Part shown: piece after piece, positions 27,444 to 35,022 of the stretch | How positions within the stretch are numbered: the stretch's first letter is position 1 | Layout of the letters: every line of letters starts with the position of its first letter | NCBI GenBank assembly: GCA_007130695.1 | Contig: SLRZ01000173.1 | Coordinates: 1-54,887, forward strand | Length of the DNA stretch: 54,887 bases | Origin: Nitriliruptoraceae bacterium | Lineage (GTDB): Bacteria > Actinomycetota > Nitriliruptoria > Nitriliruptorales > Nitriliruptoraceae | Direction of reading: 5' to 3' | The notes under the pieces: model-generated | What the model saw: only the letters and a program-made list of their open reading frames with translations | The model's database searches: none | Told to the model about the DNA's origin: nothing | Made by a program: the position numbers and the translations under genes

Positions 27444-27454
27444 GTACGGACAAT
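27444..27454 (+). promoter_or_regulatory. Shared 11-nt element upstream of the rhodanese gene
   Basis: GTACGGACAAT, preceded by GGAATAA, lies 97 nt upstream of the rhodanese start in an AT-richer patch. A near-identical copy lies 100 nt upstream of the next gene (28239-28249). It could be a regulator half-site or part of an alternative-sigma promoter. Confidence 0.45.
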
Positions 27455-27551
27455 GGCGCGTTCTCTACGCCAGCATTCCGCCTTCACCGGCCCCCGAATG
27501 CCCCCCGATCCCATCACTTTCGACCCCGATCCACCTTTCAGGAGGTACCCC

Positions 27552-28124
27552 GTGTCACAGGCCACCCTCTGCGTCCGCCCTGAGGAGTTGCAGGACCGGC
27601 TCGAGGAGGCGGTCGTCGTCGACGTCCGCAGTCCCGGCGAGTTCGAGTCCGTCCACATCCCCCGGTCGCGCAACGTGCCCCTCGACGAGATCGACCAGCA
27701 CGTCGAACAGCTCCGCCGCGAGGCCGAGGCCGGCAAGGAGGTCGTGCTCGTCTGCCGCTCGGGCAATCGCGCCCATCAGGCCCAGGAGAAGCTCGAAGCC
27801 GCCGGACTGGGCGAGCTGCCGATCCTCGAGGGCGGCATGGTCGCCTGGGAGCACGAGGGTCGTGACGTCGTCCAGGACGTCATCCGCTGGGACCTCGAAC
27901 GCCAGGTGCGGTTCGCCGCCGGCGCGATCGTCCTGCTGTCGATCCTGGCCAGCATCGTGTTCCCGCCCGCCCGTTACCTCGCCGGGTTCGTCGGCGCCGG
28001 GCTGGTCTTCGCCGCGGTGACCAACACCTGCGGTCTGGCGATGGTGCTGTCCAAGCTGCCGTACAACCAGCCGCGCAAGCAGTCCGAGATCGACGGCGAG
28101 CAGGGCGTGCCCACGAGCGCATGA
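27552..28124 (+). CDS. Rhodanese with C-terminal DUF2892-type membrane domain
   Basis: Sulfurtransferase of 190 residues. An N-terminal rhodanese domain (about 5-105) carries the active-site loop CRSGNR (Cys68), and a C-terminal pair of hydrophobic helices (about 118-165) matches the YgaP/DUF2892 arrangement that anchors the enzyme to the inner membrane. It likely handles persulfide or thiosulfate sulfur at the membrane. GTG 27552 has a strong AGGAGGT 6 nt upstream. It precedes an MBL-rhodanese gene and shares an upstream element with it, indicating common sulfur-stress control. A hairpin follows the gene. Confidence 0.9.
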   Translation: MSQATLCVRPEELQDRLEEAVVVDVRSPGEFESVHIPRSRNVPLDEIDQHVEQLRREAEAGKEVVLVCRSGNRAHQAQEKLEAAGLGELPILEGGMVAWEHEGRDVVQDVIRWDLERQVRFAAGAIVLLSILASIVFPPARYLAGFVGAGLVFAAVTNTCGLAMVLSKLPYNQPRKQSEIDGEQGVPTSA

Positions 28125-28174
28125 TCCGGGCGGGAAACGGGTCGCTCGCCGTCGCGCCCCTGCAGCCCTCGTCA

Positions 28175-28213
28175 GGGGCGGGCCGCACTCCGTGCGCGGC
28201 GAGCGCCCGCCCC
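28175..28213. terminator. Candidate terminator / RNA structure after the rhodanese gene
   Basis: GGGGCGGG (28175-28182) pairs with CCCGCCCC (28206-28213); inside it CGCAC/GTGCG forms a second small stem. It lies 50 nt past the rhodanese stop and before the shared element of the next gene, which supports separate transcription of the two sulfur genes. Confidence 0.45.
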
Positions 28214-28238
28214 GGCTGCTGCACCGACCGGAAGAAAT

Positions 28239-28249
28239 GTACGGACTAT
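28239..28249 (+). promoter_or_regulatory. Shared 11-nt element upstream of the MBL-rhodanese gene
   Basis: GTACGGACTAT, preceded by GGAAGAAA, lies 100 nt upstream of the ATG at 28350 and differs at one base from the copy before the rhodanese gene. Confidence 0.45.
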
Positions 28250-28349
28250 CGGTGACGTTCCCACTCCCGGACGATCGAGACGACGAGGATCCGCTCGCCG
28301 CCGCGTTCCGCCCCCACGACGACCCAACGATCCGCAGGAGGCACCTCCC

Positions 28350-29759
28350 ATGACCATGGAGATCCTGACCCTGGAGACCCCTTCCCTGGGCGACCGCAGC
28401 TACGTGGTCACCGACGGCGAGTTCGCCGCGGTCATCGACCCCCAGCGCGACATCGACCGGGTCTTCGAGCTCACCGAACCGCGCGGTCTGAAGATCACCC
28501 ACGTGCTCGAGACCCACAACCACAACGACTACGTCTCCGGCGGACTCGAACTGGCCCGGCAGACCGGCGCGGCCTACGTGCTCAATGCTGCCGAGGAGAT
28601 GTTCTTCGACTTCGAGGGCGTGCGTGACGGGGACGAGTTCAAGGTCGGCCAGCTGACCTTGCGGGTCATGCACACCCCCGGCCACACCCCGACCCACATC
28701 TCCTACGTGGCCAGCGACGGCGCGAAGCAGGCCGTGTTCACCGGTGGCAGCATGCTCTACGGCTCCGTTGGCCGCACCGACCTCGTGGCGCGGTCCATGG
28801 CCGAGGAGCTCACCCGCAAGCAGTACGAGACCGCCAAGCGACTGGCCGAGGAGCTGGACGACGACACGACCGTCCTGCCAACCCACGGCTTCGGCAGCTT
28901 CTGCTCCTCGGCGGCCGCGGACGAGCAGACCGCGGACGTCGACCCCAAGTACGGCGTGGAGATCTCCACCATCGGCGAGCAGCGTCGGGCCAACCTCGCG
29001 CTGACCATCACCGACGAGGAGGAGTTCGTCTCCACGCTCCTCTCGGGCCTCGACGCCTACCCGCGTTACTACGCCCACATGGCGCCGCGCAACAAGGTCG
29101 GGCCCGAGGGCATCGACCTCAGCCCGCCCGTCGAGGCGGACCCCACGGAGCTGCATCGCCGCATCCATGTCGGTGAGTGGGTGGTGGACCTGCGTGAGCG
29201 CACCGCCTTCGCCTCCGACCACGTGGTCGGCACGGTCAACGTGGAGGTCGGCAACTCCTTCATCACCTACCTGGCCTGGATCCTGCCCTGGGGCACCCCG
29301 GTGACCCTGGTCGGTGACACCCCCGAGGAGGTCGCCGAGGCACAGCGTCAGCTGGTGCGCGTCGGCGTCGACCGTCCCGCGGCCGCGGCCACCGGCGGCG
29401 TCGAGAACTTCGGCGCCGGCCTGGACCACGGCAGCTACCCGGTCTCGGACATGGAGGGGCTGCTGAAGGCCCTCAACGCCGAGAAGGCCGAGCAGGTCCA
29501 CGTGCTGGACGTCCGTCGCAACGACGAGCGCGGACAGGGCGGCATCGCCGGCTCCCAGCACATCCCGATCCACGAGCTGCCGCGTCGCGTCGAGGAGGTC
29601 CCGACCGGGAAGCAGGTGTGGGTGCACTGTGCCTCGGGCTACCGCGCGGCGATCGCCTCGTCGATCCTGGCCCGCGCTGGCCGCACCCCGGTCCTCATCG
29701 ACGACTTCTCACACCGCATCGAGGAGCTCGGCTTCGACGTCGAGGCACCCGCGGCCTGA
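28350..29759 (+). CDS. MBL-fold metallohydrolase fused to two rhodanese domains (persulfide dioxygenase-like)
   Basis: Protein of 469 residues. The N-terminal beta-lactamase fold (about 1-245) has ETHNHNDYVSGG: the usual HxHxDH metal motif has Tyr in place of the last His, a variant seen in this MBL-rhodanese family. Further ligands are in HTPGHTP. A first rhodanese-like domain (about 265-345) lacks a catalytic Cys; a second (about 365-465) has CASGYR with Cys427. It probably oxidises glutathione- or other low-molecular-weight persulfides and passes sulfur on. ATG 28350 follows AGGAGG; an ATG two codons later is an alternative. It is paired with the membrane rhodanese gene. Confidence 0.9.
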   Translation: MTMEILTLETPSLGDRSYVVTDGEFAAVIDPQRDIDRVFELTEPRGLKITHVLETHNHNDYVSGGLELARQTGAAYVLNAAEEMFFDFEGVRDGDEFKVGQLTLRVMHTPGHTPTHISYVASDGAKQAVFTGGSMLYGSVGRTDLVARSMAEELTRKQYETAKRLAEELDDDTTVLPTHGFGSFCSSAAADEQTADVDPKYGVEISTIGEQRRANLALTITDEEEFVSTLLSGLDAYPRYYAHMAPRNKVGPEGIDLSPPVEADPTELHRRIHVGEWVVDLRERTAFASDHVVGTVNVEVGNSFITYLAWILPWGTPVTLVGDTPEEVAEAQRQLVRVGVDRPAAAATGGVENFGAGLDHGSYPVSDMEGLLKALNAEKAEQVHVLDVRRNDERGQGGIAGSQHIPIHELPRRVEEVPTGKQVWVHCASGYRAAIASSILARAGRTPVLIDDFSHRIEELGFDVEAPAA

Positions 29760-29931: not shown

Positions 29932-30795
29932 TCAGCGCGGGGCGGGCACGATCGTCACCGGCAGCTCGCTGTGCTGCGCGAGTGACGTCGCGACGCTGCC
30001 GAGCAGGAGCCGGCCCACCGGTCCGTGGCCACGCGAGCCGACCACCAGCAGGTCAGCGGACCGGTCGCGCGCGAGGTCCAGCAGTGCCGTCCGGGCGTCG
30101 CCCTCGACGAGGGCCACGTCGTAGTCCACGCCGGTGGTCCGGAGGTCGGCGCACCATTCCTCGACTCGCTCCCAACGCAGGTCGAGGTCGACCTGCGGGT
30201 CGACGGCCCGGGAATCGACGACGTCACCCGTCCCCGTCGCGTGGGCGACCACGAGCTCCGCCCCGGCCTTGGCGGCGATGTCGGCCGCATACCTCAGGCC
30301 ACGCGCCGCGTCCTGCGACCCATCGGTGCCGGCCACGACCGTCTCGAGCCGGACCGGTGGGACCGGCGCCATGTGCCGAACGATGGTGACCGGACCCGGC
30401 GCGTGCTCCGCGAGCTGCCGGCTGACCGACCCGAGCAGGAGACCCTTGAATCCGCCGAGGCCGCGGGACCCGACGACGATCATCGCCGGACGGCGCTCGG
30501 CGGCGCCGAGCAGCGCTTGAGCCGCCGGCCCCCGTGCCACCTCGAGCACGACGTCCGTCGCCTCGTCCCCGAGCACCTCCTCGACGAGATGGGCGAGCTG
30601 CGCCTCGACGAGTTCGTCCGAGCGGGCTGGGCTCGGCAGCTCGATCCTGCCCACCGTCAGCAGCGCGTCGGTGGGGTACTGCCACGCCCACAGCGCCCGC
30701 AACGGCAACCGCAGCGCATCCGCCACGACGGCGGCCCACCGCAGCGCGGTCCGCGAGTCCTCCGAACCGTCGACACCGATCAGCACGCTGGTCAT
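29932..30795 (-). CDS. Universal stress protein, tandem Usp domains
   Basis: Protein of 287 residues made of two UspA domains. Each ends in an ATP-binding signature, G-x2-G-x9-G(S): VGSRGLGGFKGLLLGS in the first and VGSRGHGPVGRLLLGS in the second, so both are likely nucleotide-binding. Tandem Usp proteins of this type act in stress and dormancy in actinobacteria. The start ATG 30795 (TSVLIGVDGSEDS) is the canonical domain beginning, with GAGGAGCAGCC upstream. It diverges from the ACP-FAAL-PlsC gene. Confidence 0.93.
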   Translation of the reverse strand: MTSVLIGVDGSEDSRTALRWAAVVADALRLPLRALWAWQYPTDALLTVGRIELPSPARSDELVEAQLAHLVEEVLGDEATDVVLEVARGPAAQALLGAAERRPAMIVVGSRGLGGFKGLLLGSVSRQLAEHAPGPVTIVRHMAPVPPVRLETVVAGTDGSQDAARGLRYAADIAAKAGAELVVAHATGTGDVVDSRAVDPQVDLDLRWERVEEWCADLRTTGVDYDVALVEGDARTALLDLARDRSADLLVVGSRGHGPVGRLLLGSVATSLAQHSELPVTIVPAPR

Positions 30796-30919: not shown

Positions 30920-30943
30920 GTGCAGAGGGCCTGGGGGCGCAGC

Positions 30944-33763
30944 GTGAGCGAGGAACGCGGACAGGAACCCGGTGTCGGGGAGGTGGAGACCCTCGCGACC
31001 CTGCTGCGGGCCGTGCGTGACGTCGTCACCGAGGCGCACCCCGCGACGACCCCGCCGACGGTGCGGGTCGACTCCCGCCTCGACACCGACCTCGGCCTCG
31101 ACAGCCTCGCGCTCGCCGAGCTGCTCGTCCGCGTCGAGCGGGCGTTCGGCGTCCGGCTGCCCGACGAGCTACTCGCCCGCGTCGAGACCCCCCGCGACCT
31201 GCTGGCCGAGCTCCCGGCGGCCCCTCCGGGCACCGGAGCCACCGCGCCTCGGCCCTCGGCACCGTCGCCGCCGGCGCCACCCGGTGGTGGCCCCGCGCCG
31301 GCCGAAGCGGGCACGCTCCTCGAGGTGCTCGAGTGGCACGCCACCGCACATCCCGACCGCGTGCACGTCCGGCTGCTCTCCGACGGCGGCCAGCAGGAGC
31401 TGACCTACGGCGCGCTGCGACGCGAGGCCACGGCGGTGGCCGCCGGGCTGCGCCAGCGGTCGGTGGCACCGGGCGCCACCGTGGCGATCATGCTGCCCAC
31501 CAGCCGCGAGTACTTCGTCGCGTTCTTCGGGGTACTGCTCGCCGGTGGGGTGCCCGCCCCGGTGTACCCGCCCGCCCGGCCCTCGGCGCTGGAGGAGCAC
31601 CTGCGACGCCACGTCGGAATCCTCGACAACGCCCGGGCGGAAGCGATGATCACCGTGGAGGAGGCCCGGCGGGTCGCGCGGCTGGTCGCTCCCCGGGTCC
31701 CGTCCCTTCGCCACCTCGTCACGGTGGAGGAGCTCGTGGCCGCCGGTGGCCGACCACCGCGGGTCACACCGTCGGCCTCGGCGACCGCGCTGCTGCAGTA
31801 CACCTCCGGCAGCACCGGCGACCCCAAGGGCGTGGTGCTGAGCCACGCGAACCTGCTCGCCAACATCCGGGCCACGGGGCAGGCCGGGGACATCACGACC
31901 GACGACGTCTTCGTCAGCTGGCTGCCGCTCTACCACGACATGGGACTGATCGGCTCGTGGCTGCTGAGCCTCTTCTTCGGCATCCCCTTCGTGGTGATGT
32001 CGCCGCTGGCGTTCCTCACCCGGCCCGCGACCTGGCTGCAGGCGATCCACGACCATGGCGGCACGATCTCGGGAGGGCCGAACTTCGGCTACGAGCTGTG
32101 CCTGCGCCGCATCGAGGACGCCGACCTCGACGGGGTGGACCTGAGCCGCTGCCGGATCGCGTTCAACGGGGCGGAGCCCGTCAGCCCCGACACGATCACG
32201 CGGTTCACCGAGCGGTTCGCGCCCTGGGGGCTGGACCCGGGAGCGATCACCCCCGTCTACGGCCTCGCGGAGGCGTCCGTGGCGCTCACCGTGCCGCCGA
32301 TCGGGCGCGGCGCCGTGATCGACCGGGTGGCCCGTGGGCCGCTGAGCCGGTCCGGGCGTGCGGTGCCGGCGGCCCCCGACGACCCGTCGGCGGCCCGCAT
32401 CGTCGCCTGCGGTCGGCCGCTGCCGGGGCATGAGGTCCGCATCGCCGACCCGGGCGGCGAGACCCTCGGCGAGCGACTCGAGGGGCGGGTGCAGTTCCGC
32501 GGCCCCTCGGCGACCTCCGGCTATTTCCGCAACCCGGCCGCCACCCGGCGTCTGTTCGTCGGCGACTGGCTCGACTCGGGTGACCTCGGCTACCTCGCCG
32601 ACGGGGAACTGCACCTCACCGGCCGCGTCAAGGACGTCATCATCCGTGCCGGCCGCAACCTCCACCCGAGCGAGCTGGAGGAGGCCGTCGCCGCCGTCCC
32701 CGGCGTACGCCGCGGCTGCGTGGCGGTGTTCCCCACCGCCGAGCCCGCGACCGGGACCGAGCGCCTGGTCGTACTCGCCGAGACCCGCGCCACCGTCGAG
32801 GCAGCGCTCGCCGAGATGCGCCGCGGGGTCAACGCCGCCGCGGCCGACGTCATCGGAACCCCGCCGGACGAGGTCGTGCTCGCTCCGCCGGGCGCCGTGC
32901 CGAAGACCTCCAGCGGCAAGGTCCGGCGAGCCGCCGCGCGCGAGCGCTACGAGCAGGGCCGACTCGGCGAGGCCCACCGTGCGGTGTGGTGGCAGGTCGC
33001 CCGTCTGGGCGTCGCCAGCGTGCTCCCGCGGGTGCGCCGCGCCGGGCCCCACCTCCTCCGGGTCGCGTACGGCACCTATGTGCGCGCGTTGTTCGCGGTG
33101 ATCGCCGCGGCCGTGTTCCCGCTCGTCGTGCTGGCCCCCGGGGTCGAGCGTCGCTGGAGGATCGTCCGCGGCGCCGGCCGCCTGCTCTTCCGCCTGGCGG
33201 GCGCCCGGCTGGTGGTCGAGGGCACCGAGCACCTGCCCGACGGGCCGCCGTACGTCGCGACCGCCAACCACTCGAGCTTCATCGACGCACTGGCGCTGGC
33301 CATCGTCCTCCCCGAGCCCGCCGTCTTCGCGGCCGTCGGCGAGTTGGCCGACCAGCCGGTCACGCGCGTCTTCCTGCGGCGCATGGAGGCGCACCTGATC
33401 GACCGCGGGGACCGGCCGGGTGGGCTGGCCGCCACCGAGGCGCTGACCGACGTCGTGAGGTCCGGGCGCGTGGTCGTCTTCTTCCCCGAGGGGCGGCGCT
33501 CGCCCGCGGTGGGGCTCGAGCCGTTCCACATGGGGGCGTTCCTCGTCGCCGCCGACGCACGCGCGCCGGTCGTGCCGATCGCCCTGCGGGGCACCCGCAG
33601 GATCCTGCCCGTCGGCCAGAGCCTGCCGCGGCGGGGGCCGATCCACGTGACGGTCGCGCCGCCGGTCACCGCCGGGGAGGCCGGATGGGCTGGCGCCGTC
33701 GACCTGCACCGGGCCGCCCGCGCGGCGATCCTGCGCCACTGCGGCGAGCCGGACCTCGCGTGA
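30944..33763 (+). CDS. Three-domain fusion: acyl carrier protein, fatty acyl-AMP ligase, PlsC acyltransferase
   Basis: Protein of 939 residues. An N-terminal ACP (about 13-88) has the phosphopantetheine site LGLDSL (Ser54). After a Pro/Ala-rich linker (about 92-122) comes an adenylating domain (about 125-670) with YTSGSTGDPKG, LPLYHDMGLIG, GGPNFGYELC, AFNGAEPV and KTSSGK; the last-but-one motifs are typical of fatty acyl-AMP ligases (FAAL). A hydrophobic stretch (about 715-735) leads into a PlsC domain with NHSSFID (HX4D, about 774-780) and FPEGRRS. It should load a fatty acid onto its own ACP and pass it to a (lyso)lipid acceptor. GTG 30944 follows GGGGGC. The MFS gene overlaps its end (GTGA). 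Confidence 0.92.
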   Translation: MSEERGQEPGVGEVETLATLLRAVRDVVTEAHPATTPPTVRVDSRLDTDLGLDSLALAELLVRVERAFGVRLPDELLARVETPRDLLAELPAAPPGTGATAPRPSAPSPPAPPGGGPAPAEAGTLLEVLEWHATAHPDRVHVRLLSDGGQQELTYGALRREATAVAAGLRQRSVAPGATVAIMLPTSREYFVAFFGVLLAGGVPAPVYPPARPSALEEHLRRHVGILDNARAEAMITVEEARRVARLVAPRVPSLRHLVTVEELVAAGGRPPRVTPSASATALLQYTSGSTGDPKGVVLSHANLLANIRATGQAGDITTDDVFVSWLPLYHDMGLIGSWLLSLFFGIPFVVMSPLAFLTRPATWLQAIHDHGGTISGGPNFGYELCLRRIEDADLDGVDLSRCRIAFNGAEPVSPDTITRFTERFAPWGLDPGAITPVYGLAEASVALTVPPIGRGAVIDRVARGPLSRSGRAVPAAPDDPSAARIVACGRPLPGHEVRIADPGGETLGERLEGRVQFRGPSATSGYFRNPAATRRLFVGDWLDSGDLGYLADGELHLTGRVKDVIIRAGRNLHPSELEEAVAAVPGVRRGCVAVFPTAEPATGTERLVVLAETRATVEAALAEMRRGVNAAAADVIGTPPDEVVLAPPGAVPKTSSGKVRRAAARERYEQGRLGEAHRAVWWQVARLGVASVLPRVRRAGPHLLRVAYGTYVRALFAVIAAAVFPLVVLAPGVERRWRIVRGAGRLLFRLAGARLVVEGTEHLPDGPPYVATANHSSFIDALALAIVLPEPAVFAAVGELADQPVTRVFLRRMEAHLIDRGDRPGGLAATEALTDVVRSGRVVVFFPEGRRSPAVGLEPFHMGAFLVAADARAPVVPIALRGTRRILPVGQSLPRRGPIHVTVAPPVTAGEAGWAGAVDLHRAARAAILRHCGEPDLA

Positions 33764-35022
33764 CGGACGCGGACGAACAGCGCCGGGCTCCGGCGTGGCG
33801 GACCGCACCGGTGCTCGCCGCGTCGCTGCTGGCGATGTCGTCGGGGATCGCGGCGTTCGGCGTGACGGCGGTGATCGGGGACGTGGCCGCGGCTTTCGGC
33901 GAGCCCGGCGCAGGCGACGAGGCCCTGACCGAGATCGGCCTGCCCGTGACGACGATCGGGATCGCACTCGGCATCGTGCGGCTGGCGTCCCTGGGCAGCC
34001 TCCCGCTGGCGGCCGCCGCCGACCGTGTGGGACGCCGGCGGCTGCTGCTCACGGTCGCGGCGCTCGGGCTCACGCTCACGAGCCTCGCCGCGACGGCCCC
34101 GGGCCTGTGGTGGTACGTGGCGCTGGTCGCGTTGGCCCGGCCGTCCCTGGCGACCGTCAACGCCGTCACCGGGGTGGTGGCCGCCGAGGAGTCACGGTCC
34201 ACGGACCGTGCCGGAGCCATCGCGATGATCACCGCGGCCTACGGCGTCGGGTCCGGCATCGTGTCGGTCGGCCGCGGCCTCCTGCCGGGCGAGCCGTCGT
34301 TCCGCGTGGTCTCCCTGTTCGCGCTGGTGCCGCTGCTGTTGCTCCCCGTGATCGCCCGACACCTGCGAGAGCCCGAGATCGCGACCGAGCGGGCCCGACC
34401 GGAGGGGCTGCCGGGTGTGGTCCCGCGCCGCCTTCGCGGCCGGGTCACCGTGCTGGCGCTGCTGGTCGGTGGGATCGCGGTCGCGACCGGTCCGGGGTTC
34501 ACCTACCTCTTCGTCTACGGCGAGCGGGTGCTCGGTGCCACGCCGTTGCAGGTGTCCACGCTCGTGCTGGCCGCCGGCCCCGTGGGGCTGGGTGGGCTCC
34601 TGCTCGGCCGCTGGGGCGCCGACCGGCTCGGACGCCGTCTGACCGGGGCGCTGACGATGGCGGGTACCGGCCTGGCGGTCGCGGTGGCCTACTCCGGCAC
34701 CTTCCCGGCCCTGGCCGGCGGCTACCTCGCCACCATCCTGCTCGCCAGCGCGTTCGCACCGGCCCAGGGAGCGCTCGCCGCGGAGCTGGTGCCCACCTCG
34801 GTCCGGGCCACGGTCGCCGGCTGGGCGGCGGTCAGCGGCGTGCTGGGCGCCGTGTTGGGCCTGACCACCTTCGGGGTGCTCGCGGACGCGACGGGTGGGT
34901 TCGCCTCCGCCGCACGGCTGCTCGGGGTGCTGGTGGCGGCGGCGGCGCTCGGCTTCCTCGGCCTGCCGGAGACGCACGGCGTCGAGCTGGAGGAGCTCGA
35001 GGAGCCCGCGCCTCCCGCGTGA
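33760..35022 (+). CDS. MFS transporter coupled to the ACP-FAAL-PlsC gene
   Basis: Major facilitator superfamily protein of 420 residues with about twelve hydrophobic helices. The cytoplasmic loop 2-3 motif is AAAADRVGRRRLLL and the mid-protein counterpart is GRWGADRLGRRLTG. The GTG start overlaps the stop of the acyltransferase fusion, so the two are translationally coupled and probably work together. By analogy with the E. coli pair LplT (MFS lysophospholipid flippase) and Aas (acyltransferase plus acyl-ACP synthetase), it may flip a lysolipid or the acylated product; this is inference and sequence similarity to LplT is not established here. Confidence 0.85.
   Translation: MTDADEQRRAPAWRTAPVLAASLLAMSSGIAAFGVTAVIGDVAAAFGEPGAGDEALTEIGLPVTTIGIALGIVRLASLGSLPLAAAADRVGRRRLLLTVAALGLTLTSLAATAPGLWWYVALVALARPSLATVNAVTGVVAAEESRSTDRAGAIAMITAAYGVGSGIVSVGRGLLPGEPSFRVVSLFALVPLLLLPVIARHLREPEIATERARPEGLPGVVPRRLRGRVTVLALLVGGIAVATGPGFTYLFVYGERVLGATPLQVSTLVLAAGPVGLGGLLLGRWGADRLGRRLTGALTMAGTGLAVAVAYSGTFPALAGGYLATILLASAFAPAQGALAAELVPTSVRATVAGWAAVSGVLGAVLGLTTFGVLADATGGFASAARLLGVLVAAAALGFLGLPETHGVELEELEEPAPPA

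Follow-up and report, generated by a model that had tools for sequence, protein, structure and literature searches.

A carrier-FAAL-PlsC protein overlapping an MFS transporter gene in a Nitriliruptoraceae genome: a possible analogue of Aas-LplT

Introduction

The closest described counterpart of the locus reported here is the Aas-LplT pair of Escherichia coli (b2836-b2835; PRK08043, PRK11195), in which a fatty-acid ligase and a PlsC-type acyltransferase are joined in one chain and the directly downstream, overlapping gene encodes a transporter of the major facilitator superfamily (MFS). LplT-Aas has been described from Gram-negative bacteria only, and we know of no such pair in the Nitriliruptoraceae (Actinomycetota). 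The window, i.e. the whole stretch of DNA that was analysed, is a 54.9-kb contig belonging to an incomplete 3.3-Mb Nitriliruptoraceae genome (G000), and it encodes an acyl carrier-fatty acyl-AMP ligase (FAAL)-PlsC three-domain protein whose stop codon is overlapped by the start of an MFS gene. We propose, with a probability of roughly 45%, that the three-domain protein is a self-loading lysolipid acyltransferase with an MFS transport partner, analogous to Aas-LplT.

Several other known systems share parts of this arrangement. In the fused LplT-PlsC-Acs proteins (PRK06814, PRK08633) activation, transfer and MFS transport are genetically joined, as here, but in a single MFS-PlsC-ligase polypeptide with an Aas-type ligase and without a carrier, and the window sequences score far below the cut-offs of these models. 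To our knowledge, FAALs are known almost solely from natural-product and mycobacterial lipid pathways. The FAAL-acyl carrier protein (ACP) didomains of polyketide synthase (PKS) and non-ribosomal peptide synthetase (NRPS) pathways, together with FAALs of the FadD32/FadD28 type, have the same ligase fold, insertion and carrier partner, whereas in the window protein the acyl chain is predicted to go to a PlsC domain and not to a ketosynthase, and no PKS is nearby. PlsC itself (TmPlsC, 5KYM) shares the catalytic core, the two-helix anchor and the NHX4D and FPEG motifs; the protein described here differs in not keeping both residues for the phosphate of lysophosphatidic acid (LPA) and in carrying an acyl donor system of its own on the same chain.

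Fusions of a FAAL with a lysophospholipid acyltransferase in bacteria are mentioned in one sentence by Patil et al. 2021 (PMC8460268) and are very probably of the same architecture class; the main text describes no members, function, carrier or MFS partner. A search of a 2025 FAAL review (PMC11837247) for phospholipid or lysophospholipid gave no match, and no functional study of this protein type was found in the literature searched. The public annotation of homologs is generic ('AMP-binding protein', 'acyltransferase' or '1-acyl-sn-glycerol-3-phosphate acyltransferase').

Domain architecture and active sites

The three-domain gene (30944..33763, forward strand, as are all its parts) starts with GTG and encodes 939 amino acids, or 947 if an alternative upstream GTG at 30920 is used. 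The domains were identified with Pfam and NCBIfam profiles, and an AlphaFold model built from a 43-sequence alignment had a mean pLDDT of 86.7. The carrier domain (residues 20-92; 31001..31219) matches PF00550 over residues 39-88 (E 3e-10) and carries its phosphopantetheine site, Ser54 (codon 31103-31105), in the motif LGLDSL; a phosphopantetheinyl transferase is encoded in the same genome. The ligase domain (residues 124-675; 31313..32968) matches the Pfam AMP-binding family over residues 129-528 (E 2e-70) and contains the ANL motifs A3, A5, A7, A8 and A10 as well as the catalytic Lys659 (32918-32920). A further segment (33020..33199), delimited from sequence and the secondary structure of the model, leads to the PlsC-type acyltransferase core (33209..33586; PF01553 over residues 756-881, E 1e-24; 5KYM match E 3e-16), where NHX4D with H776-D781 and FPEGRRS (847-853) were found.

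The ligase domain is of the FAAL type according to both profile and model comparisons. It scored about 410-420 bits against the NCBIfam FAAL and PRK07768/PRK09192 models and 160-170 bits against Aas-type models, and its best solved-structure matches were an olefin synthase FAAL, the E. coli and Legionella FAALs, FadD32 and FadD23. When the AlphaFold model was used in a fold search, the top 28 structural matches were all FAAL chains. The FAAL-specific insertion region (approximately residues 444-487; 32273..32404) was recognised from a gapless alignment to 3PBK and from motif spacing, the distance from YGLAE to ACGRP being 50 residues here compared with about 23 in E. coli Aas. Rejection of CoA and loading of holo-ACP are predicted for this domain, given that FAALs load carrier proteins and not CoA (PMC8460268).

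Among 88 aligned proteins, Ser54 was kept in 85/85 homologs having that column, Lys659 of the ligase and H776, S778 and D781 of NHX4D were invariant (88/88), and FPEG or a near variant was present in nearly all. These results bear out what a first-pass annotation had read from the window, namely a carrier serine in LGLDSL, a FAAL-type ligase and a PlsC domain with HX4D, and also its observation that the domain order (carrier-ligase-PlsC) is reversed relative to Aas (PlsC-ligase), with the carrier built in.

Distribution of homologs

Genome contigs were scanned with a profile made from an alignment of eight class members and the best 80 loci were analysed. Except at contig ends, all 80 had the three-domain layout, with 45-68% identity, and they came from at least five phyla: Alpha-, Beta- and Gammaproteobacteria, Desulfobacterota, Acidobacteriota, Nitrospirota, Entotheonella and, among actinobacteria, Mycobacterium, Rhodococcus, Glycomyces and Nitriliruptoraceae. 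Of 274 evenly sampled Gammaproteobacteria (in the GTDB sense), 46 had the protein at E <= 1e-150, so that roughly one sampled species in six has this unnamed protein. Thus, the three-domain protein is not rare but widespread.

Linkage to MFS genes

The MFS gene (33760..35022, forward strand; 420 amino acids, PF07690) starts with GTG at 33760 and the stop codon of the three-domain gene is the TGA at 33761-33763, such that the two share the four nucleotides GTGA (33760..33763), an overlap typical of translational coupling. This overlap, pointed out in the first-pass annotation, was kept at all five linked loci. The window-type MFS adjoins the three-domain protein in three Nitriliruptoraceae genomes (G000, G004, G017) and a FAAL-less carrier-PlsC protein in two others (G008, G033). 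A 4-nt overlap was present in 5/5, with the order acyltransferase-then-MFS in four and MFS-then-acyltransferase in G017, and with ATGA as the shared sequence in G033. Given the overlap at all linked loci and the invariant active sites of the 88 homologs, the arrangement is not due to chance.

In a phylogenetic tree the five linked MFS copies formed a single clade (support 100/99), and a near-universal paralogue of the class was found elsewhere in the genome in 55/66 genomes. By this tree, the linked MFS is a lineage-specific paralogue dedicated to the locus. The two FAAL-less proteins (L024:8145-9266 and L025:4985-6124), each of about 375 amino acids and each sharing a 4-nt overlap with the MFS start, fall within the three-domain clade of the Nitriliruptoraceae (support 100/100 for the clade, 93/75 and 91/82 at its inner forks). 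Given this nesting, the simplest history is a single loss of the FAAL, with carrier, PlsC and MFS retained. A carrier-PlsC query against 397 Actinomycetota recovered the FAAL-less form in G008 only, and that of G033 came from a separate search. In G008, a single-contig genome, no other FAAL-like protein was detected at E <= 1e-30, which suggests that its carrier is probably charged by another route. In E. coli, LplT binds Aas via the transferase domain (JBC 2024, PMC11416262), and the retention of the MFS with PlsC after loss of the FAAL fits that finding.

The first-pass annotation had suggested looking for the domain order with its MFS neighbour across genomes. The three-domain protein proved common and to stand alone in most bacteria, and the window-type MFS was beside none of the non-Nitriliruptoraceae matches among the best 80 loci. 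A universal pairing with this MFS was consequently rejected.

An unrelated MFS gene of the UMF1/ATG22 type (PF11700) was adjacent or within 0.5 kb at 8/80 contig loci: two in Pseudomonas (L059, L091), three in Rhodocyclaceae and Sulfuritalea (L064, L071, L085) and one each in Pseudomaricurvus (L061), Alphaproteobacteria (L088) and Desulfobulbaceae (L094). With about 0.75 UMF1-type genes per genome having the three-domain protein, approximately 0.13 such neighbours would be expected by chance in 80 ten-kilobase windows (estimated from gene count and genome size). The eight loci are not independent but represent at least five lineages. No UMF1 neighbour was found in 37 control regions, and its position relative to the three-domain gene varied (upstream, downstream, divergent or convergent). 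It was adjacent at 0/40 loci in the even gammaproteobacterial sample, so that only some members of the family show the association.

The acceptor lipid

In TmPlsC, K105 and R159 (the latter in motif III) are positioned for binding the LPA phosphate (PMC6688108). From the alignment to 5KYM the equivalents in the window protein are V798 and R852, respectively. Both residues together were kept in 0/87 homologs: at the R159 and K105 sites, in that order, most carry K and either F or L, and the Nitriliruptoraceae copies carry R and one of V, A or F, so the acceptors may differ between this family and other phyla. E. coli Aas has neither residue; like the window protein, it has a motif III of the FPEGR type and lacks the LPA lysine. 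The LPA acyltransferase model TIGR00530 gave 83.1 bits, below its cut-off of 102.95, and the genome encodes six other PF01553 proteins; at least one of these has an EGTR motif, together with a lysine close to where it would be expected. Taken together, these observations make an acceptor other than LPA likely. Matches of the PlsC domain to profiles also included Aas-type enzymes and, at 46.6 bits against a cut-off of 300, the lyso-ornithine-lipid acyltransferase OlsA (NF052553).

Proposed mechanism and alternatives

In the mechanism that we propose, the FAAL domain would adenylate a free fatty acid and hand the acyl chain to the protein's own holo-carrier at Ser54, presumably in cis. The PlsC domain, anchored to the cytoplasmic side of the membrane by its two helices, would then use this chain to esterify a hydroxyl group on a non-LPA lysolipid, most likely a lysophospholipid, and the co-translated MFS protein would bring the acceptor, or take the product away, across the membrane. 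The physiological role would be salvage. Sequence comparison shows which domains are present, that their active sites are intact, that the ligase is of the FAAL type and that the overlapping genes have long been linked; the linkage to the MFS survives both the order reversal in G017 and the FAAL loss in G008 and G033. The mechanism of the first-pass annotation is in these respects plausible, with the coupling better supported than before and the acceptor lipid and cargo putative.

The resemblance to Aas-LplT is at best one of working principle, in a pair that appears separate by descent and is not a member of that system. As a candidate Aas (PRK08043) the three-domain protein was rejected, given the reversed order, a score of its PlsC part of 53.9 bits compared with a cut-off of at least 886, and the absence of this model from the best 25 whole-protein matches. 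The MFS had no match to the LplT model (PRK11195, cut-off 297 bits) at E 0.01, with E. coli LplT itself scoring 579 bits. The Aas-LplT-like logic suggested in the first-pass annotation gained support from the linkage surviving reversal and FAAL loss, from the second MFS family and from the missing LPA residues, but not from any kinship of the MFS to LplT. If the function is lysolipid repair, the locus would be a convergent counterpart of Aas-LplT. A wider and more tentative view is that many phyla have a second system for lysolipid remodelling, one without kinship to Aas-LplT, in which a self-loading FAAL-type acyltransferase works with MFS flippases recruited from at least two unrelated families, in the Nitriliruptoraceae among others. 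A widespread FAAL working inside a membrane acyltransferase would bring FAALs into ordinary lipid metabolism, and natural comparisons for the role of each part are offered by the sister form that lacks the FAAL and by the two families of MFS.

Several observations weigh against the lysolipid proposal. Most three-domain homologs, including those of the Nitriliruptoraceae genomes G014, G016 and G029, have no MFS neighbour. True Aas is also present in 5/20 genomes having the three-domain protein (Aromatoleum, Methylocystis, Competibacter, Imhoffiella and a Burkholderiales genome); a simple replacement of Aas is therefore unsupported, and the co-occurrence points to a role or a substrate distinct from that of Aas. 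The FAAL has been lost in G008 and G033, hence, as judged from the tree, self-loading is dispensable in one sublineage. Finally, class-wide paralogs of the MFS adjoin glucan/trehalose genes (treZ, glgX, treY and malQ, named by eye, at L141, L144, L146 and L137) and elsewhere DNA-repair genes (xthA, mfd), and the best fold matches of the MFS were organic-anion and sugar carriers, in a search that was not discriminating. The cargo need therefore not be a lipid, and that of the class-wide paralogue may be a sugar or an organic anion.

These last findings would also fit the same chemistry on another acceptor, in which a glycolipid, a lyso-aminolipid or a storage-lipid precursor is O-acylated and the MFS exports the product or imports a polar precursor, for lipid building and not repair. 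The weak lyso-ornithine-lipid model match and the acceptor-site residues peculiar to the Nitriliruptoraceae point the same way. We consider this somewhat unlikely, since no glycosyltransferase or head-group gene recurs beside the three-domain protein and the gene mostly stands by itself, which would be expected of a salvage enzyme acting on a common lipid.

That the MFS is an operon passenger, with the three-domain protein acting alone and the transporter serving another purpose, would account for the large majority of homologs without an MFS neighbour. This is unlikely given the dedicated MFS clade, the overlap at every linked locus including the reversed one, the retention of the MFS after FAAL loss and the independent UMF1 association. 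An ordinary LPA acyltransferase with built-in activation, turning exogenous fatty acid into phosphatidic acid, appears improbable in view of the sub-cut-off TIGR00530 score, the residue pair never kept and the other PF01553 proteins of the genome, although the core is PF01553 and TIGR00530-like, the closest solved structure is TmPlsC and the motif III arginine is kept in the Nitriliruptoraceae copies. A loading module of a polyketide or lipopeptide pathway is very improbable: FAAL-ACP didomains usually start such pathways (PMC8460268, PMC11837247), but no PKS or NRPS genes were seen around the three-domain gene of the window or among the neighbours that recur, and the fused PlsC is intact in all homologs.

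Gene neighbourhood

Upstream of the three-domain gene lies a divergent universal stress protein gene (29932..30795, reverse strand; PF00582, E 2e-52), which is context outside the system. The MFS gene is followed by a short open reading frame without a Pfam match and then by a glycoside hydrolase 3 gene on the opposite strand. With these flanks and the overlap, the three-domain and MFS genes look like a two-gene operon. Nearby universal stress protein genes were counted at 7/120 loci, in 3/5 plasmids and at 2/10 class loci, compared with 0/37 control regions, which is suggestive but not significant. The plasmid homologs (L210, L211, L213, L214) lie among genes for universal stress protein, Hsp20, FtsH, phosphoribosyltransferase, MgtA-type ATPase, PolX and DUF302, surroundings that resemble a low-oxygen or dormancy island and with which the window gene shares its stress protein neighbour. 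On one of these, a Cupriavidus plasmid (L211:4191-14153), the three-domain gene shares an overlap with a second AMP-binding gene, and the genes that come next encode AcsA, subunits of pyruvate dehydrogenase and a free acyl carrier protein.

In G016 and G029 the three-domain gene is directly followed by a PgsB/CapB-like Mur-ligase-type gene (L019:1959-3671; L020:6957-8144), and genes for a membrane protein resembling PgsC and for a gamma-glutamyltransferase-like product lie close by, a set of the poly-gamma-glutamate type. Elsewhere in the window (27453-29759), a rhodanese with a YgaP-like membrane segment is followed by a metallo-beta-lactamase-fold/rhodanese protein, and the two are probably a sulfide/persulfide oxidation pair.

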